A stretch of DNA of 64,000 nt from Papaver somniferum (Eukaryota > Streptophyta > Magnoliopsida > Ranunculales > Papaveraceae): assembly GCF_003573695.1 (NCBI RefSeq), contig NC_039358.1, forward strand, positions 17,112,637 to 17,176,636. The letters are read 5' to 3'. Made by a program: the position numbers and the translations under genes. Positions 1 to 56,222 of this stretch are shown here, piece by piece (within the stretch, counting starts at the first letter, position 1; each line of letters starts with the position of its first letter). The notes under the pieces were generated by a model that worked only from the letters and a program-made list of their open reading frames with translations, ran no database searches and was not told the origin of the DNA.

Positions 1-59
1 TACCGCGTGGAGAGACTTGTAAGTTGTAACTGACAAATAAAGTGGCAGATGCTATGAAT

Positions 60-1345
60 TTTTGACGGATCCCGTTACCAACCGTAACTAGTTTTAAAAA
101 CAAATTTTAACTGCCATTTGCACTTACGGTTGGTATCGATAATCCAGTTAGTAACCGTAACTGACCCTGACACCAAATACAAAGCAATTATAAATAATTT
201 AAAACCATTAAACCATGTATTACTAAACCAACACTACAACCATCAAACCATTACAAATATAAATGACATTACAACTCATTTATTCATGCGAACTAAAAGG
301 ATACTAATATCCGGGTCTGCGAGTGCGATTGAAGTCTTTAAGGATGTTGAAATGAGGTAAGTATTGAAAATTCGACCTTTTCCACCTTCTCCATTCTTGA
401 ATAGAGCTCTCTAAGACTTCAGCGTCAGTTTCACCCCTTAATCGTATTTCACCCATAATACGAACTAATGTCATAAATTCTTTAACGTTATCCCGAATAG
501 TTCCATATCGAACATACAACATAATTCCATCGCGATGATTTGGTTTACCTGTTTCGGAACAAAAGTTTTCAAAAAGAGTTCTCAAATAAATTGTACTCAC
601 AAAACCACATCGACGTCGTTCTTCCCCTCTTTTTGGATAACATAGAACAAAGTTGCGGCAAATACATAAATCTTCTTCCAAAGTGAATTCAGGGTTTAGA
701 GCCATAATCTAGTTTAAGGTAAGAGATGATGTGGAAGTGTAACTTCTAGCAAGGAGGATAAGTATATATTTATAACAAAAAAAAAAGTGAAGTTGTTAGT
801 GCAAGGACATTTCAATAACGGATCTATTTTTTTAAAATGAAGTTGTTGAAGGTCTCAACGGCTATATTTTTAAATTGCACAAGGACATGTCAGTGCAACT
901 GTAAGCACCAAACAATTATTTTTTTCTGCCAAAAGTTTAGTTACGGTTGGTGAATGTAAGCACATAACGAACCGTAACTCCGTAAAATTTTGAATTCGAA
1001 AGTTACGGTTCGTAATTATTTAGAGATGATAAACCGTAAATCTGGATTAAACTGAATCCCAGAGTTACGATTCCTTAGCCGGAAAGATTACCAACCGTAA
1101 ACCTGTCAAAATCAAAATATACAGAGTTACGGTTGGTAACTGTGACTCAAAATGAACCATAATCAAAGTTAAAGGTTACAGGATGTTTTACGGTTGGTTA
1201 GGGTGGAAGAGTTACCAATGGTAACTTTCTCTACGGTTCGTGTCGATAAATTTTTACGAACCGTAACTTAAGTTAGTAAAAAATGCTTGTTCCAGTCTGT
1301 GCAATGGTTCATAACAAAAAGTAGTTACCAACCGTAATTGACTCT
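60..1345. repeat. Array of ACGGTTGGTAA / TTACCAACCGT motifs (left)
   Basis: About 14 copies of a 10-14 bp motif occur in both orientations, for example near 76, 126, 949, 1001, 1088, 1125, 1190, 1231, 1255 and 1326. Variants read TACGGTTCGTAA or TACCAACCGTAA. Copies are separated by unrelated AT-rich sequence and often come as inverted pairs 15-40 bp apart. The same motif fills 4405-4900 on the other side of the PMD coding exons, so it brackets the gene. It is not a simple tandem repeat. Confidence 0.85.
304..705 (-). CDS. Myb/SANT-like protein, PIF/Harbinger ORF1 type (tentative)
   Basis: An open frame of 133 codons starting at 705. It begins with an acidic FTLEEDLCICRNF segment, followed by a basic patch (GEERRR), an F-x3-F helix, a central VRYGTIRDNV segment and a C-terminal FNILKDFNRTRR. 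This order resembles the trihelix-like SANT/Myb domain of the accessory protein of plant PIF/Harbinger transposons (often annotated Myb/NAM-associated). In that family the domain is thought to bind terminal DNA and help the transposase. No transposase is visible next to it in the window. It lies inside the left motif array of the 1-5400 element and on the same strand as the PMD gene. A TATA-like stretch (rc of tatatatttat) lies about 50 bp upstream. It could also be one exon of a larger gene running off the window. Function is inferred from pattern only. Confidence 0.4.
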   Translation of the reverse strand: MALNPEFTLEEDLCICRNFVLCYPKRGEERRRCGFVSTIYLRTLFENFCSETGKPNHRDGIMLYVRYGTIRDNVKEFMTLVRIMGEIRLRGETDAEVLESSIQEWRRWKRSNFQYLPHFNILKDFNRTRRPGY

Positions 1346-3867
1346 GTAACTCAAAATTTCAGATAAAAACTGTCACAAACAAACATACATAAGTTTAAAT
1401 CCATAACTAACACAAATAACTTCAAATTCATAATTAATATCCATATGCTAAATTTCATAAGCTAAAATCCATAATTAACACACAACTATTAGTTTGTCAT
1501 AATATCCATAAGTCGAAATTCATAACTAACCACACACAACTAACATAAATCCATAACTAAGCATGGCGGCCACCACGACCCCTTTTGTTGGTGCTACCAC
1601 CACCACGATTTTTAGGACCACCACCACGAGTTTTAGGACCATCACGACGACCACCGCGACTACCGCGACCACGACCACCTCTTTGGCTAGTGCCCACACC
1701 GTGCACCACCTCTTCATCATTTGTCTCTTCGCTGCTAGATGAAGGTTGATGACGGCTACTATCCTCACCTCCAAGAGAGTTTCTACTCCTCTTTAAGCCT
1801 CTTTCGTCTTTGACCAACCCCTCATACATTTCTGCCATGTTTGGATTATGCATGTTCCTTATTTGGTCTTGCAAGATCTTTTGTTCACGAGCTTTAAGCA
1901 CACCATTACGACGGATGCATGAAGTCATGCTATTTGCCAAAGCTTGTCCTCGCTCTTTCTATTCACATATCAAAAAGAGTGTTAAGAGATTATTTCATAA
2001 TAATCATTAATCTTAAAATCCCAAGTCATGAGGATAAAAAAATTACGTACCGACATGAAATATAGCTTCTTCCAAGTCAAACCAAATAGACCTTTTTTCT
2101 CTTTAGTCTCATCGACCGCCTTCCTTTGAGCCATAGCCTCTTGAATATATGGTTGGGCCTCCGGATCATTATTGATCACATATGGATGACCAAAATGGGA
2201 ATACCAACCCATGTGATCAGCAGTGGCTTCTTTCGTGTTGTTACAAGGAATTGCCTCTCCCGCTGCGAGTTGGTATCTTTCTTCATGGCGGTTGTTCCAA
2301 GCATCAACCGTTGGATTTGGCATGTAGTTGAGCACAATGGTGGGGCCTTTTGTCTCGGATCCTTGCTTGGATAATTTGAAGTTTTCCTCTACAACCCTTT
2401 GTTGAATATGAGCAATTTGGCGTAGAGTTCGACGAGGATTGGTCATAACGTAACCTGTGGGATGATACAATGGTCTACTGTAACCTGCGGTCTCTGTGAA
2501 CCTACGAACATCAACTCCATTTTCAATCCTCAAATAAGGGTCTAAGATAACATCTTCAACAGTGAAAGCATCTATTTTCTCCCTCATTTGAATGAGCTTC
2601 TCCTCTTTGTTCCTTAGTTGTCTGCCAGTGAACTTGAACTTCTTTCTCGTAGGGCCATAATCATGTTCTTCCCACTCAGTAGGAGGTCTCAGGCTCGGAA
2701 AGTGGTCATAAACCCATGCCTAAAAAATAAATTAAGTATAAACAATTGACACATGACTAAAAATATAACAAACAAAGAAAAATGTAACCAAACTTACCAT
2801 TAGAAACGCAACATTCCCGGCAATTTCAGTAGCTCCAACCCTAGAAGCCTTTCTTAGGCTGTCAAGTAAATATGCAAGGGTTGCAGTGGCCCACGAATAG
2901 TTTTTGATGTTGTCCAAATTCTTCAACAGTTGTAGGTAATGAACATTGACCCTATTTCCCGAGTAATCGGGAAAGAATACGGTCCCAAGATAATACAACA
3001 AATACGCTGTGGCTGTACGCCTAACTGTTGTTTCATCCATCACCTGACCTTCCCTTTCCTTTGCTGCTGTTCCTTCAAACTTGGTCCTCAGATTCTTCAA
3101 CAATAACTTTTTGATGATTTTTGGTTTATGTGGTTCAGCAGGGTCATAACCACCAGCCAACTGAAACTCCATCTCAGTTTCATCTTTCTCCCACCCAAGT
3201 GTTTCTTGAACAAGGATATAAAGGTCAGTCCAAGACATGTTGTTGTAGAAACCTTCAAACACAGATTGTCCTTCAACTTCAAGGTCAGTAATTTGCTTCA
3301 CATCGTCCGGTGTTATTTTCATCTCTCCAAATGGAAGATGAAACGTATCGGTTTCAAGCCAATATCGTTCCCTGAAGGCAGAGACCACAACACTATCATA
3401 CTCCGATTGAAGGTGAAGAATTCCAAGCCCTAGTCCTGTACTAGCCACTAGATTGCGAACCGAAGCACATTCTTGACTTAATGGCCAATGTTTACCCCTT
3501 TGACGCTTGAGAAATTTAATGCATCTTGCGTGGTCCTAAGAAAACGAATATACAAAAATATAAGCATATTATGGTGAACTAAAATAAACAAACAAAACGT
3601 ATCAAAATAATGAATGTTTTAAGAAAAGTAACAAAATACATACCCTTGTCTGACAGACTTTTGCGGACCAGGAACCGGTATAACTAAATAAGATTGAAGA
3701 CTTATATGGGGCCTCGCCCCAAGGTCTTTTATTCTTCTTCGCTGGCAACAACAAATCTTTGCCTTTAGGAATATGCATCCCTTTCGGTGCGGGCTCCTTT
3801 CTCGGCTTATTTTCTTTCTTTTGCCTTGGAGGTGCAGCTACAACTACCTCTTTTTCCTTGATATTTT

Positions 3868-4080
3868 CTACCTCTTCATCATTTTCTTCCTCTTCCTTTT
3901 CTTCATCATTTTCTTCATCATTTTCTTCATCATTTTCTTCATCATTTTCTTCATCGGCCTCCTCTTCATCATTTTCTTCATCTTCCTCCTCTTCATCATT
4001 TGCTTCCTCTTCCTCCCCTCCATCATCATCGGTTCCTTTAAATTCTTCTTCATCTTCATCATTATTAGTTTCTTCCTCCA
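3868..4080 (-). repeat. Acidic NDEE-coding microsatellite-like tract
   Basis: Within exon 2 of the PMD gene a 12 bp unit (rc of tcatcattttct) is repeated perfectly about five times at 3903-3955 and imperfectly around it. It encodes (E)ENDE repeats in an acidic low-complexity region. The opposite strand appears as long Ser/Phe-rich open frames, which are artefacts. Confidence 0.75.
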
Positions 4081-4404
4081 CAATTCATTTTCGTTGCCTT
4101 CACGGTTAGTTTCGACTTCGTCCTATTCTTGATCATTATGTTCCACTCCTTCTAGCTCAACTCCAGATTCAGCCACAGGTTGTTCCCTCAACTTAATTTC
4201 AAACTTATTCTTCATCTTCTTCTCATTCTTGTGGATACCTCTATTATTAACCCCTAAATGCTTGTCACCGCGAGGGATGGGCGTATGATCAATCGGGGTT
4301 AAGTCATTTCCTCTCTTTCTCTTCCTACACAAGCATTACAATTGATTGATTTACTAAGGGTAAAACAAATAATATAAACAACAAAAAAACAAAACAAAAT
4401 GGTG

Positions 4405-4900
4405 AGCCTACATAGTTACGGTTTGTAACCAATGAACAGAGACCAACCGTACCACTCACACGGTTGGTAAATAGTGAATCGAGACATCAACGATACGGTT
4501 GGTAACTGATGTATCGAGATCAACCGTAACTAAACTACGGTTGGTTTGTTATCTTAGTTTTCAACCGTAAGTTTTCTTTGGCCAAATACTAACATACATG
4601 ATGTTCTACGGTTGGTAATGGATGTTGAGTTACAAGTCGTAACTCAAATACGGGTGATAACATTGATGGAATTACAAGCCGTAGAAACCAAATGAAAGTT
4701 ACAGAACAATGTACGGTTCGTAACTCAACACACGAGACCAACCGTAAGCTACTTACGGTTGCAAAAAAAAAAAAAACGTAATTGAACAATTTCTCATAAA
4801 TTCAAGAACTTACGGTTGGTATTTCAGTTATTACGAACCGTATCATCAACAAAAACCATTGTTACGGTTGAAATTGGAGTAATTATCAACCGTAACTCAC
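4405..4900. repeat. Array of ACGGTTGGTAA / TTACCAACCGT motifs (right, in PMD intron 1)
   Basis: About 15 copies of the same motif as at 60-1345, in both orientations (for example near 4414, 4460, 4493, 4538, 4608, 4712, 4738, 4809, 4861, 4888). The array lies wholly inside the first intron of the PMD gene, between exon 1 (5134-5013) and exon 2 (starting 4324). The equivalent position in the 51186-56222 element also holds an array, with a different motif. Confidence 0.85.
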
Positions 4901-5419
4901 ATGCAACACACAAATTTTAGTTTCAATTTCGATCCAAAACCCTAATTGTTTATACAAAACTAACTTAAATCATACAATAGACTAAACCCTAACTGGGTTT
5001 TTCGAAACATATCTCAAATAAGTCATTGTGCTTGATTTTGACGGTTGAGGAGTTTCAAATTGATGTTCTTGACCTAATGGAGGATTTGGTTCATTAGAAC
5101 GGCTACAATCTTCGTCAACCTTCTTCTTCGGCATCGCTAATATAGTTTCCAATCAACGATTATCAATTTTTCAAACCGCCGATTAATCGAAGAGGACGAT
5201 GAAAAATCAGTTTTAATGGTGGAGAGGAGGAGGAGAAGAGAAGAAGTAAAGTTGAAAAAAAAAATTGTTTTGATTTTCAGATTCAATTGGGTTAATAATG
5301 GGGAAGGATAATTCAGTCTTTTCAACCAAAAAAGTAAGGATAAATTAGTTCATTTGAGGTGAAAAGGGTAATCTAGTCAATTAACAACCCCTATAGGACA
5401 TCCCCTAACCAATAAAGGG

Positions 5420-6437
5420 ATATTGCTATCACTCTTGCCGCCCCTCCAATGGAACCACCCGCCCCTTTTAACAGGATTGAAGTTAAAGGTAAATGGGGAC
5501 ATGGGGTTGGCTTTTCAATATTCTGAAAGATGAAAGAGCTCTATTCTGTGCTCCATGTGAATGATTTTTGTCGTATCTTTGGTCCCATTCAATCTAACCT
5601 GTGGTTGGGTGTTCATCTCACCACATTCACTTAGTTGACCGCCCTCTTTTAGAAAATGATGACTTCCCGTTCACTCTGATCACTGGCTGGGTTATGATCT
5701 CACCGGACATTTACTTAGCTGACCACCCTCTTTTTAGAAAATTACCCAAAAAATCGAACCATACGTGCTCACTTGTCTAAACTCAAATACTTGGCTCCTC
5801 ATGAGGCTCAATGATAAGGTAACGCTGGCAATCTGTTCCACTAGTGTAATAATACGCTGTTGGAGTTTAGCTTATTAGGCTTCCAACTAGTTTCTTATAA
5901 TAATATTCTTTATCAAAATGAAAAAAAAATAAAAGAAAAATACATATCTTTGAATATCTAAATACTCAAAATAAACTAAAAGTATAGGAGTCTGTGTGTG
6001 AAAAAATTTTAGACTGTTGTTGAACAAAAAAAAAACAAGTCTTCAGACCTCTGCGTGAAATATTAACATATATACACACTTCCACATCTACATGATATTC
6101 CAATGTAGTGTATAGCATAGTTAATAAATATTTGTTTTTTGTTTCTTTTATATATTGGTTACTAATTCTCGAAAAAGAAAAGAGAAGTTGGGTCAATTGT
6201 CCAAATATTTTTAAAACATGGTTCTAATGGAGGAGTAAAAATTAGTATGGGTGAAATGGACACCAAAAAAATAGCAAGAATGAATCTGGATTCATCCGGG
6301 CTTAAACTTAAAAAATAGCGAGGATGAAACTGGATACATCCTGATGTAAATTAAAAATAAGAAAAAGTATTTGAAAATGGGTAGGATGAAACTGTTTACA
6401 TCCTGGCTACTTTTACATTCTCATCCATTTAAACAGT
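5420..6437. other. Non-coding stretch with small local duplications
   Basis: No gene is recognisable. Two related segments about 105 bp apart (near 5607 and 5692) share CATCTCACC..CATT.ACTTAG.TGACC.CCCTCTTT.TAGAAAAT, a local tandem duplication. At 6265-6420 three imperfect inverted motifs of the form GGATGAAACTG..ACATCC occur, another small motif cluster, cut on its right by the LTR element at 6438. Confidence 0.6.
6433..6437 (+). repeat. Target site duplication ACAGT (left)
   Basis: ACAGT directly before the 5' LTR is repeated at 15593-15597 directly after the 3' LTR: a perfect 5 bp duplication, as made by LTR-retrotransposon integrase. Confidence 0.85.
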
Positions 6438-51185: not shown

Positions 51186-51225
51186 GAACAATTAATTGGG
51201 GATAAAAAAAAGAATTAGGGGATAT
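51186..51225 (+). repeat. Left terminal inverted repeat
   Basis: Pairs with 56183-56222 with few mismatches and one length difference. The cores are TTAATTGGGG-ATAAAAAAA and GAATT.GGGGATAT. Confidence 0.85.
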
Positions 51226-51496
51226 TGATTACTTCCAGCAACCCATGGTGTGTGCCAAGGGGTGATTTTTGGGTATGAAAATACTAAAATACCCTTTAAT
51301 TAATTTAAAAACATTATGAAAAGACCATTATATCCTTTCTCCTAAAACATTAAAATCAAAAACCAAATTCATATATCCCCCATTTCAGTACCGGCACTGA
51401 CCTAGGGTTAGGTTTTGAAAAAAAATCATCGTTCTTCATCCGTTCTTCGTCGATTCAAGAATTTCTTCGTCGATTAAACTACCTGAATCATAAACA

Positions 51497-53622
51497 ATGC
51501 CTCCACGAAGGAAAACGACTGCCCAATCGAACTCAAAATCGATTGCTCAACAAAAACAGGAACAAAAAATTGCTAAGATTGCTCAAGAGCAAGAAGAAGA
51601 ACAAGCAGCGGATTCGGACAATCAACCTCTCGCAACCATGACTTTTGTGAGAAGGTTAGTGATTTTAAACTAATTTGTGAGTGTTTTAATCGATTTATAG
51701 CAATGGGTTTAGGTTAGAATCGCGAACCCTAACTAAAACAGTTGAGTTTCAGTGATTATCGGCACTAAAATATGTATGAATATGGTGCCGGTTTTACCTT
51801 CCGGCATTCAATCTAGGATGAATGCAATGTCGGTTTCACTCCGCAGATTCACCAGAAACTGAATTTTAGATACCGGCATAGAAATTGGGTCGAATTCACT
51901 GACGGTTCTTGGTACCGGCGGTCATTTATAACTATTCGTGTATGCCGGTAGTGGTCTAAAAACATTCAAGAGAGTTTATGAATTTGTCACCAGTACCGGT
52001 ATAGACTTTTGGTTGCAATGTATGCCGGTTTAAAGTACCGGCATTCTTTTGTAAAATTCGAGCATGCCGGTAGTGGACTTAAACCATACAGGAGAGTTTA
52101 TGAATTTTTTACCAGTACCGGCATAGATATTTAGGTTGATTCGAATGCCGGCACCAGGTTACGACATGGAATTGATTTATTTCGAGCATGCCGGTACTTA
52201 AAACATACAGGAGAATTACATATGATTACCGGCATTGTCGACAATCATTGTTTAATGCCGGAACAGACAACCGGCTTGCTTTGTTTCAGTAAGTCAATGC
52301 CGGTGGAAAAACTGAAAGTGAGTTGTCTCGCATTCATTTCGTGTGATTTTATGATATATGTCAAAAGCCAAGGAGGCTAACAAAAGAAAAACTAAAGATG
52401 CTGTCACTAAGAGAAGAAGGAATTACGGTCTTGATACTCCTCAATCTCTCCCTCCTCGAGGGAAAGATGGAGGTCGTAAAAAGCGTTTGGGGGCTGAGAC
52501 AATAGGGATAATTTGGGAGAGTGGTGGTGACCGTAGTCGAGCTGTAATCCGTGAGCAAGATGAGCAAGATGAAGAGGAAAGTGAGGATGAAGATAATGTG
52601 GTTCCTCCAAGTCAATTAGCAAGCCAAAGCGAAGTTGGTGGGTCAAGTCAACAACCAACACAAGGCAATGGCAATAAGGGCAAAGACAAAGTGAAAGTTA
52701 AAGGTTCCCACCTTCCTCATATTAATGACATGATACCTGACCTTGAACGTGGTAGAATTTGGGGTGAAGCTCCGGAACCGAAAACGCTATTTGGATACAA
52801 GCACTCGTGGGCTCGTACTAGCTATCAAACCTATGTAAGTATTTTTTTATCTTGTGCATATGTATTGTTGTGTATTTATGTAAAATATCTTAATTGTATT
52901 GTCTCCTAATTGTAGGATCATACGAAGGATGTGCGTGTTTGCCGAAACCAAGCCGCGAATTGTTGGAAATTGTCCGATGAATGTGAAGAGGTCCAACAAA
53001 TAGTAATGGAATCTGGTCTATATGCTTTGGTTGAAAATTATGTGAAGCCTGATTCCGTGACTGTCAATTGCTTCGTCGAAAGGTATCATGGTGAAACCAA
53101 TACCATGCACTTCCTTTTTGGGAGATGACCTTCATCCCTGATGATGCTCAGAACATTCTAGGCTTGAATGTTACCGGCAAATCAATTGCAGAAGGAGTTT
53201 AGTCTCTGGACCTAGAATGGTCGAAGTTGCATGCTTTGACTAAGAAGCTGTTGGGTTGGGACTACAAAACTTCTGTGGAGAGATTTTATGAATCCAAGTC
53301 TGGTAGGACAAAGACAATCAAGTTGACGCTGCTTAAGAAGAAGTTTGAAAACACAAAGCAAATAAGTTTGGAGGATGGATGGGACCCTGAAGAAATTCGT
53401 TATACTGCCGCTGCATACCTGTTATACATCTTGGGCACTAGGGTATTCCCTGACACTAATGGCAATAGGGTTAGTGCGAACTACCTTCAGTACTTGGATC
53501 CATTGGAAGATGTCTATGGTTATTTTCGGGGCACCGCGGTAATGGCACATTTAATGATGGAGATGAGAAGGGCCTCTAAGGCTAAAACCAACCAATTTGT
53601 CGGGAGTTTCACACTACTGCAG
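51497..53622 (+). pseudogene. Plant mobile domain (PMD) gene, broken and 3'-truncated
   Basis: Exon 1 is 51497-51654 (MPPRRKTTAQ...ATMTFVRR, donor GTTAGTG). After a repeat-filled intron, a second exon ends at 52834 (donor GTAAGT) and a third runs 52916-53622. The second starts around 52360 (KEANKRKTKDAVTKRRRN) but its acceptor is unclear. Exon 3 has the PMD core: FVERYHGETNTMHFLFG, then after a lost base MTFIPDDAQNILGLNVTG, a TAG stop, KKLLGWDYKTSVERFYESK, YTAAAYLLYILGTRVFPD and NGNRVSANYLQYLD. It ends at a GTAATT donor with later exons missing. Exon structure and motif order match the gene at 1557-5134 (ITPDDV, AYLLYYLG, GNRVNVHYLQ), so they are homologous cargo. One frameshift and one stop make it non-functional. 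Confidence 0.85.
51780..52315. repeat. Array of TACCGGCAT / ATGCCGGTA motifs (left)
   Basis: About 16 copies of a 9-10 bp motif in both orientations within the PMD gene's first intron, often as inverted pairs separated by 5-30 bp (for example near 51790, 51872, 51942, 51992, 52011, 52030, 52070, 52120, 52145, 52190, 52228, 52255, 52300). Confidence 0.88.
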
Positions 53623-53689
53623 GTAATTTTGTTTTTAAACTTATGTTATTATGTATATTGTTCACATGTACCCTTATCGTGAACTTAGA

Positions 53690-55951
53690 AACAAAACTTA
53701 TTCCCAATCTCTTAGAAATTCCAACCACTTTTTATGATTTTCCGCATGTTCTTTGTCCACTCACTCCTTCATCTTGCCTCTCTCATCTTCTTCTTCGGAG
53801 GAGGATAGTTTGTTCTTTAGAACATCTTCCTCTAGTTGCAATCATTCTCTTCTTAATATCCGCCTTAGTGGGTTCAAACAAGGCATGGCAAGTTTTTATG
53901 ATATTTTGACGTATATGATATGTACATAGGAAATTTTCTGCGTCCGGGAAGACGTCGGATATTGCTTTCATTAATGCATCATCTTGATCGGTTACGATCA
54001 CCCTCGGAAGTTGATTTTCCCGAAAGAATAATTTCAATTGTCGTAATGCCCAATGATAATTATTGTCCCTCTCGTTTTTTATTAAACACCAAGCCAATGT
54101 GAATGTTACCTTGTCCGAGGTTTGTCCCACGATGTTGAACAACGGCATATTGTATTTGTTTGTCTTGTAGGTACAATCCATCATAAGAACACCAAAACAT
54201 GTATTTGCCAATTATAAAATCAAAGGATGCGAAATGAATATTTGAAGGGGGTTCTCGTCCGGCCCTCTTTTAATGATACGCGTGTAGTTGTAATCCAAAG
54301 CCATCTTCTCAAATTCTTGCATAACGGACCTCCCTTCCCATTCCACCCTTCTAATAGTTGCTTGTGCGCTATAAATTGTACGTAGACAAGACACGTTGGA
54401 CTCATCCTTTTCCTTGAAGCCTCTGAGAATTTGTCTCGGTTTGATAAGTGCTTTGATCAATCTCTTTACATCCTCGAACTCATGAGGTTTCAGCTTTGCA
54501 ACTAGGGAGTGACCAACAAAATCTTTTGGATCCCGGCGGTTATGACATCCACACAAAACCTCACAATCCCAATTGTTCATGTCATTTAAACGGAAAACAA
54601 GCTTAAACGGGCAATCATTCTTCCTCGTACGAGTCTTATGTACCTTATTAGTCTTCTTTGGATATACATAATCCTTTCCCTTGTGGCTATTCTTCTCCTT
54701 GTATTTCCCACTTCTCTCGCAAGCCATCTCAAAACGCCTCTTTGAACGTTCGGTATTCCTCACCAACACACACATGTTCTTAAGAGCCGTCTCTTTAGCC
54801 CAAGCGATTGCTTCATTTCGATCTATTATTCCCTACATAAGATCAATTTCACATTCATTAGAAGGTTCATTACTAGCAATCCATTAGTAAATTATTCTTT
54901 GGTCACATACCGGAGGTATTTTATAGTATTCCGACGTATCCCGATAAAACGGCTTTGCATTTGTTGGATCAATATATGTCACCACCTAAAGATCGAACGA
55001 AAATTAGTTCCAAACGAAATTAAAACACTATGCCGGAAACAAGTACCGGCATGCTCGACCAATGTTCCGGCATTGTCAAACTTAGCCAAAACTGAAGACC
55101 AAATTTGAAACATATTTCGGCATACATTATTCATTAGACATCAACGCCGGAAAACAAGGTATCGGCACTGTCGTAAATTATTGTCCCAACCCGTTACACG
55201 CTACCGGTATTCCAATTAATTGATATGTAATGCCGATATTTAGCTCTGGAAAACATTTATTCCTGTATGTTTTTTTGTAGGTGTCGACATTGTAAATTTG
55301 AAACTCAACAATGCCGGTTCCACTGCCGGCATTCTCGAAATTGATGGTACTACGCCGGTAACTGGTTCCGGCGTTGATGGTTATTAATTTTCCATGCCGG
55401 TTTTTGGCTTTACATGGAAAGGTTTCCTATATGTTTTTCATGCAGTTCCGCCATGGTAACCTATCAATGAACCCATGTCGGTTTAATATTCCGTAGTATA
55501 TTCCTTGGTAGGTAAAAAAGTTAACTGCGTACCGGCATAGTTTTTTGGTAGAATACTATGCCGGATCAATATTCAAATTGGGAGATATCGCTTTACCGGC
55601 ATGGTCGTAGTATGAATACCATGCCGGTAACGCGTCTGCCGGCATGGTATTCATACTACGACCATGTCAGCACCGAGGTTTTACAGTTGAAAAAATGGCG
55701 GGTTTAAAGAAAAAAAAATCGACTTTTCAACCTCCTAGCAGCTTTACATGTGTATTGGGGATGCTTGCATGTTGTGCAAGTTTACTTTCTTGTGTAGATT
55801 CTTCGAAAAACTCTCCATACTCGTCAAAATCATCATTCAAGGGTGTTGGCTTAACAAAGAGTTGCAATTGAGAGTTGTTGACGTTAGCTCCTTGTTGTAG
55901 TAGAGCTAAAGATTCAACAGCTGCAATTCTCTCCTCACAATCATCTTCCAT
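53690..55951 (-). pseudogene. FAR1/MULE transposase gene, nonsense-mutated and truncated
   Basis: Exons on the minus strand: 55951-55748 (MEDDCEERIAAVESL...), 54985-54911 (VVTYIDPTNAKPFYRDTSEY), 54832 to about 53783, all in phase 0 with GT..AG introns. Exon 3 carries a FAR1-type zinc-binding domain (NDCPFKLVFRL, WDCEVLCGCHN) and then the MULE transposase core (LMMDCTYKTNKYNMPLFNIV, PRVIVTDQDDALMKAI, NFLCTYHIRQN). The first two catalytic acidic residues are present (MDCTYKT and VTDQDD). The third and the SWIM zinc finger are missing because the gene stops near 53690, where decayed codons (DKEHAENHKKWLEFLRDWE) meet the PMD gene. A TAA at 54214-54212 interrupts the core between SHPLIL and LANTCFG. 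In FAR1/MULE enzymes these parts bind terminal DNA and cut it. Confidence 0.88.
55020..55670. repeat. Array of TACCGGCAT / ATGCCGGTA motifs (right)
   Basis: About 16 copies in both orientations within the first intron of the transposase gene (for example near 55031, 55045, 55068, 55315, 55328, 55355, 55396, 55532, 55558, 55596, 55620, 55638). The last pair is part of a larger inverted repeat (ACCATGCCGG..CCGGCATGGT) near 55610-55650. Confidence 0.88.
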
Positions 55952-56182
55952 TTTCACAAAAAAAAATCCACTCAAAAATATTTTTCCCTCCTTCTACTCT
56001 CACCTCACTCACCCAAATTCAAATAAAACACACACTAATCATTTATCAAAAATCTTAAGATTTTACTAATTATTAGTAATCACTAATCCTTATTAGTGAA
56101 GGGTAGATTAGGTAATACGTAAAATACTTAGATAAGGGGTGACCCCGAATTGATATCTGGAACCAGTTTTTGTCCTTTTCTT

Positions 56183-56222
56183 ATATCCCCCAATTCCTTT
56201 TTTTATCCCCCAATTAATGGTT
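56183..56222 (-). repeat. Right terminal inverted repeat
   Basis: Reverse complement reads AACCATTAATTGGGGGATAA and continues AAAAAGGAATTGGGGGATAT, matching 51186-51225. The target duplication CTTTATTTA follows at 56223-56231. Confidence 0.85.

Follow-up and report, generated by a model that had tools for sequence, protein, structure and literature searches.

Clade-specific word arrays in PMD-carrying Mutator-like elements of Papaver somniferum and their possible role in self-recognition

In a stretch of 64,000 nucleotides from Papaver somniferum (NC_039358.1, here referred to as the window) we analyzed a Mutator-like element (MULE) carrying a gene for a PMD protein, together with its relatives in the genome. 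These elements contain arrays of a short word which are located in noncoding DNA, are phased with the DNA helix (word types A and B), differ in their word between clades and are retained in two derivatives without genes. The phasing, the similar geometry of different words, the noncoding location and the retention in gene-less copies together argue for a DNA-binding protein of the element. We propose that the arrays would serve self-recognition and anti-silencing in the manner of VANC, with PMD as the central protein, and that the word would be altered one half-site after another while the geometry is maintained; binding and anti-silencing are the parts that we infer, and we see the scales evenly balanced for this reading. 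Full-length relatives are predicted to encode a FAR1 and MULE transposase, a PMD protein and often a small protein, with the arrays in noncoding DNA, most prominently in the first introns of the two large genes.

Word arrays in the window copy

The word ACGGTTGGTAA was found with up to one mismatch 19 times in the whole 64-kb window, and 17 of these matches were located within 75-4893. By chance 0.84 matches are expected in the whole window, and the maximum over 100 shuffles was 4. The consensus of the array is TTACGGTTGGTAA (A word) with the core ACGGTT, present in both orientations. Within 1-5480 there were 31 ACGGTT/AACCGT cores, 28 outside the estimated exons and 3 inside, which agrees with the about 30 copies in both orientations, flanking the gene and filling its first intron, that the initial annotation had described. 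The noncoding cores are distributed over three arrays, none of which was assigned a strand. The array of PMD intron 1 (4413..4893) fills this intron with 15 cores in both orientations at 4418-4888. A middle array (939..1340) with 10 cores at 943-1330 separates the PMD gene from a small ORF, and on the far side of this ORF a remaining array (75..165) holds 3 cores at 80-153; the homologous array of the full-length relative F16 continues. Genome-wide the exact 11-mer occurred 3543+3465 times and the reversed word 1138+1143 times.

Word type and PMD clade

Three word types were distinguished, namely A (TTACGGTTGGTAA), B (TTACGYCTAGG) and C (ACCGGCAT), the last belonging to a second element of the window at 51186-56222 (element 2). 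The PMD proteins of both elements in the window are homologous with 37% identity, and ACCGGCAT occupies the same place as the A word of the window copy, so that homologous gene, matching array position and different motif were confirmed as first described.

Of the 52 loci scored for their word 4 were without an array and 1 was mosaic. A tree of PMD exon-3 proteins was built from 44 rows (window copy, L010, L016-L056 and element 2; L015 is the window copy itself and was left out), and the rows were labelled by the exact words upstream of PMD. These labels were A in 38 rows, B in 3, C in 1 and none in 2. The B rows formed one clade with a support of 97/88, the bootstrap being not fully settled. 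On the tree the labels required 4 changes, with a minimum of 3, and none of 200 shuffles was this low. For clade C eight loci were chosen among 150 matches; six of them held 5-12 copies of ACCGGCA per 1-kb stretch and two held none, while A cores numbered at most 1 and B words 0 in these eight loci.

Within A the identity of PMD to the window copy was as low as 67% with an unchanged word, and the B rows were at 59-61%. Between A2 and B it decreased from 66% to 58-60% in exon 3 and from 72.6% to 39-49% in exon 4, which hints that the C-terminal half of PMD may follow the word. In the FAR1 part of the transposase the identity to L010 decreased from 73.5% in A2 to 62% in B, with 35% in the first 50 residues. 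The small ORF is better conserved than PMD (74% between clades A and B). In L053 and L055 mainly B words were present, in the PMD intron and in the middle array alike.

A separate word type for L049 was considered and rejected, as its repeat is located outside the element. This upstream part (~1-550) is a tandem repeat with TTGGCATG, the core of which is the A word in reversed letter order, and controls with reversed words may be inflated by it.

Spacing of the words

The distances between A words of the same orientation clustered at 41-42, 52 and 61-63 bp (651 sites in 41 loci). Their period was 10.4 bp with R 0.67, and a jitter control did not exceed 0.215 in 1000 runs; this statistic is based on 230 spacings from 8 less redundant loci which are still related to each other. 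The phasing persisted where the identity of the spacers was below 35% (R 0.665, n=102). For B words the period was 10.7 bp (R 0.63, n=58, 3 loci; maximum of the null 0.46). The pooled C loci gave R 0.64 at 10.2 and also a rival peak of 0.63 at 13.9, both figures being without a null. The sites of B and C were scored by short degenerate words and their numbers are accordingly rougher.

Among the matches listed, 96 of 100 same-orientation A distances were 41-43 or 51-53 bp in an allowed range of 27-57. The gap between convergent words was 17-21 bp in 48 of 50 A pairs (mostly 18 or 21), 17-21 bp in 41 of 50 B pairs (mostly 18-21) and 19-23 bp in 49 of 50 C pairs (mostly 20-22), again among the matches listed. 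These places are the first on C1 (for B on C1-C3) and hence a non-random set with repeated copies, such as six near-identical B pairs at C1:39.12-39.27 Mb. Genome-wide, convergent pairs numbered 11087 for A, 197 for B and 2262 for C, versus 2119, 58 and 90 for the reversed-pattern controls, respectively. For the C word the convergent spacing of 27 and the divergent spacing of 15 add up to 42, the same sum as for A and B. With same-orientation pairs the reversed-word control gave 31947 and 33133, more than the observed 8179 and 8138. Since the reversed word contains TTGGCAT, which is repeated upstream of the L049 element, we rely on the distribution of spacings rather than on this count. The distances of 41-43 or 51-53 bp between same-orientation A sites and the convergent gap of ~20 bp common to three word types are new here.

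Mosaic arrays

Locus L045 adjoins clade B on the PMD tree. By exact words it was labelled A (5 A, 3 B), yet its array is a mosaic: when up to two mismatches were allowed, the sense orientation had B words only (7, against 0 A), and the antisense orientation 5 A words and a single B word (Fisher p 0.005). The transposase intron of L055 contained three A/A pairs and two mixed pairs, in both of which the B word follows the sense and the A word the antisense orientation of its own gene, as well as a lone antisense B word beside the pairs. Fainter traces with one or two mismatches were also noted where the L053 and L049 arrays begin. The pattern, for which L045 is the one clear locus, suggests that one orientation of the word was exchanged ahead of the other on an unchanged spacing.

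Constraint and turnover of the arrays

In 12 A loci 117 words matched TTACGGTTGGTAA with up to one mismatch, 25 perfectly and 92 with a single change. Only 4 of the 92 changes affected positions 1-7, and transitions at the CpG numbered 0. Methylated transposon DNA would lose its CpG first; the core is therefore either selected or kept unmethylated. The arms of 82 convergent pairs were not significantly concordant at positions 7-11 (p 0.27-1.0), which speaks against RNA pairing, and slightly concordant at positions -1 (p 0.0035) and 12 (p 0.04).

At positions 7 and 11 the two arms of the convergent A pairs in the 12 loci resembled each other less than expected, one often having G and the other C, which hints that the pair is intrinsically asymmetric.

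Only 17% of the intron-1 array of the window copy aligned with L010 or L051, whereas exon 3 and the intron flanks were ~84-85% identical; the arrays are thus replaced faster than their flanks. In the remaining 9 copies compared the array aligned fully with that of the window. L015-L044 are close copies, and since the arrays of the 8 tested aligned fully with that of the window, these loci are not independent.

Structure of the window copy

By its sequence the copy at ~74-5479 is a truncated MULE. Its only terminus, at ~5479, is the terminal inverted repeat of the PMD side (5430..5479, no strand, outer end near 5474-5479), which was recognized by an inverse match of 5435-5479 to the opposite, transposase-side end of F16 (88.9%). 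Homology to F16 extends from 5479 to 74 and no further, placing the break point at 73..75 (no strand); the transposase half and the left end are missing. Extension to the left was expected to reach the other terminus and its transposase. Neither was found in 10 kb, where ACGGTTGGTA and matches to the L010 transposase were absent and 3 scattered ACGGTT cores were present. The test for terminus and transposase was therefore made on other copies. Because of the truncation no convincing terminal repeats were seen between the right end and the left flank of the copy, and the MULE transposase domain PF10551 was absent from it.

The PMD gene (1557..5134, minus strand) is broken. It was delimited by ORFs, the Pfam PMD domain, exon matches in relatives and donor letters, with estimated exons on the minus strand at 5134-5013, 4324-3650, 3535-2798, 2719-2051 and 1958-1557. 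A stop is located at 4123-4125, the frame changes between 4084 and 4125, and the donor of intron 1 is non-canonical. Exon 3 matched PF10536 with 93.5 bits (1.9e-26; curated cut-off 34.9), and all 9 of 9 PMD relatives scored above the curated value as well. A sequence search with exon 3 against solved structures gave no match.

Seven relatives of the PMD protein were found among 7994 candidates scored, all of them poppy proteins. Five of the seven (among P0001-P0005 and P0007) are annotated as MAIN-LIKE or MAINTENANCE OF MERISTEMS-like and are 75-92% identical to the transposon PMD; such names in poppy may therefore often mark transposon genes. The structure prediction for P0003 (432 aa, 7 rows) had a mean pLDDT of 33.9.

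The small ORF (304..705, minus strand) encodes ~132-133 aa of no known family and is located between two arrays. Relatives occur in clades A1, A2 and B, with matches at L012:5311-5706 and in L055 and L059 joined (~5136-5516). In the databases P0008 (ENA, 90%) was the only relative out of 3 candidates.

Related elements and derivatives

The full-length relative F16 (C7:30.61 Mb, 9.2 kb; joined from L071, L016 and L070) has inverted ends at its positions 791 and 9953 and a FAR1/MULE transposase on the other strand, facing PMD. The earlier view of a PMD-carrying transposon family of one architecture and differing words is supported. F16 matches the window copy at 96% in PMD exon 3 and at 93% in the small ORF. 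Although full-length it is not intact, as PMD exon 1 was not matched and the DNA corresponding to window 4726-5133 is missing. In L010 a FAR1/MULE transposase likewise faces PMD and arrays are present in intron 1 of both genes; the small ORF was not matched and a frame change breaks PMD exon 3.

Element 2 (51186..56222) carries its PMD gene on the plus and its MULE transposase on the minus strand, with arrays at ~51786-52298 and 55045-55622. It has inverted ends, a target duplication of 8 bp (TTTATTTA, by eye) and a PMD frame break near 53115; the small ORF was unmatched. In both L010 and element 2, PMD and transposase are thus encoded by two unfused genes lying on opposite strands. The MULE domain PF10551 scored 94.4 bits in L010 and 97.2 bits in element 2 (cut-off 27.6), and the FAR1-type domain of the L010 transposase 27.4 bits, slightly under the cut-off of 28.1.

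L011 and L012 contain transposase and small ORF, with PMD reduced to short remnants. L013 and L014 are derivatives of ~1.2 kb in which both ends and an array are kept and neither PMD nor the small ORF was matched. Target-site duplications of MULEs are 8-11 bp long; by eye one of 8 bp was seen in 2 of 6 copies (L011 and element 2) and none in L010, L013, L014 and F16. Different repeated words (GGGGCGKCA) are present at the ends, which read differently from CACTA (Spm/En) termini, and the transposase is of the MULE type.

At C9:183.41-183.58 Mb three PMD copies with 78-80% identity to the window copy are located within 180 kb. L050, read from this trio, is without array and exon 1 match; the copies may be gene duplicates that have escaped from the transposon.

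Proposed mechanism and rival explanations

If the system is VANC-like, the PMD protein would bind the words of its clade as an oligomer aligned along one side of the double helix and would find its own family through the density of words. There it would remove or block silencing and so permit expression of the element's genes, in the same way as VANC in VANDAL elements. Word and protein changing together would let a family escape silencing by small RNAs while the host is spared and, judging from the mosaic locus, one half-site orientation could change before the other with the spacing retained. PMD is favoured as the binder because of weak and repeated sub-threshold matches to DUF1985, a domain of VANC proteins: 8 of 9 PMD proteins matched with 4.5e-5 to 0.093 (window exon 0.045), ending at 138-140 of the 141-position profile.

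Several observations weigh against this proposal. The best DUF1985 match of PMD reached 23.9 bits, under the curated cut-off of 35.1. The transposase diverges along with the word as PMD does and, the arrays being subterminal, its binding fits much of the data. L050, L056, L062 and L068 match PMD and had no array in the stretch read; in L050 and L056 exon 1 and the first part of exon 2 were likewise unmatched there. For the C word the spacings other than those given above fit 10.5 bp poorly, and the C element of the window alone showed no significant period. VANC21 motifs are reported in one orientation in the relevant passages of PMC5735166, whereas inverted pairs on a helical lattice dominate in poppy. 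Finally, the association is at clade level, with three words and few independent word changes. The initial annotation had suggested that motif and binding protein co-evolve. The clade-level association and one clear transitional array are consistent with such co-evolution, although the small number of words and changes tempers it. It looked to the DNA-binding domain of the transposase. The word clusters on the PMD tree; PMD and transposase both diverge with the word, which does not separate them as binders. As a whole that reading is partly supported, and the observation itself is confirmed.

The main rival, which we consider rather unlikely, is that the words are subterminal sites at which the transposase, or a complex of transposase and PMD, achieves synapsis and cutting, comparable to the TNPA sites of Spm/En, with no role in silencing. 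The mutually inverted arrays of L010, ~0.5-1.1 kb from both ends, would suit such sites, as would the gene-less derivatives with their ends and array and a FAR1-type domain that diverges with the word. The middle arrays around the small ORF are, however, far from the ends, the GGGGCGKCA repeated in the ends is the likelier transposase site, and the arrays keep to noncoding DNA as in VANDALs. Still less probable is an enhancer array bound by the small protein or by a host MYB transcription factor. Here TTACCAACCGT resembles plant MYB sites and the small ORF exceeds PMD in conservation, but arrays are present in L010 and the C element where this ORF is unmatched, a host factor would need no separate word per clade, and the C word is unlike a MYB site.

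Two further explanations appear very improbable. Convergent words could pair within a transcript, and the arrays would then be RNA hairpins in introns serving as structure or as a source of small RNAs. This was already disfavoured by the arms of the 82 pairs; moreover, the mosaic pairs of L045 and L055 are unable to pair across the whole word, and same-orientation sites are phased too. Neutral tandem repeats, expanded with the transposon and functionless, would account for the quick turnover of the arrays and are hardly tenable otherwise: they are contradicted by phasing between dissimilar spacers, by a core that hardly varies and retains its CpG, by 28 of 31 cores outside exons and by similar convergent gaps for three different words.

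Returning to the PMD-based system, we tentatively put forward a more specific and rather doubtful version. The PMD protein would read its own family by a fixed lattice of inverted pairs and steps of 4, 5 or 6 helical turns, and new specificities would arise one half-site orientation at a time via heterotypic arrays (L045 and part of the L055 transposase intron, with the new word in sense and the old one in antisense). Alongside VANC, such elements could represent a PMD-based second line of anti-silencing with sequence specificity; the similarity of PMD and DUF1985 makes a relationship between the two lines probable, and the heterotypic arrays would be a preserved transitional state of protein-DNA co-evolution. 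If PMD binds the arrays, MAIN-LIKE poppy genes inside such elements would be self-recognition factors of transposons, the VANC principle would be wider than the Arabidopsis VANDALs, and the family would form a natural series for a DNA-binding specificity changing with many target sites. For each clade the arrays offer a predicted target word and a predicted geometry, with at least one natural intermediate.

Comparison with known systems

According to the relevant passages of Hosaka 2017 (PMC5735166) and Sasaki 2023 (PMC10398659), VANC binds short motifs in the introns of VANDAL elements and removes methylation there, the motif differing between families; the VANC proteins of Arabidopsis which bind such arrays carry DUF1985 (PMC5735166). 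VANDAL21/VANC21, VANDAL6/VANC6 and the poppy elements have in common a MULE transposase and a second element protein (PMC5735166, PMC10398659), short words that are specific to the family and lie within introns and elsewhere in noncoding sequence, and a fast turnover of the arrays. In poppy these arrays are specific to the clade. The poppy elements differ by their inverted ends and by PMD in place of DUF1985, to which PMD has sub-threshold similarity only. Binding and demethylation were demonstrated for VANC, while for the poppy PMD we infer their counterpart from sequence. The words "helical" and "spacing" are absent from the text of both VANC papers.

PMD-carrying MULEs were described from grasses and Amborella by Ikeda 2017 (PMC5418596), sharing with the poppy elements a PMD within a MULE. 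In the passages considered PMD is fused to the transposase, whereas in poppy it is a separate convergent gene; motif arrays are not mentioned in these passages, and an anti-silencing use of PMD by transposons is offered as speculation, PMD in MULEs being without a known use so far. Among the titles and abstract starts listed by searches of open-access literature, none concerned motif arrays in PMD elements, which is weak evidence of absence. The PMD domain is also common to the host proteins MAIN and MAIL1. These are, as far as the sources consulted go, products of host genes acting in transposon silencing, whereas the PMD genes of poppy described here are located in transposons together with their arrays.

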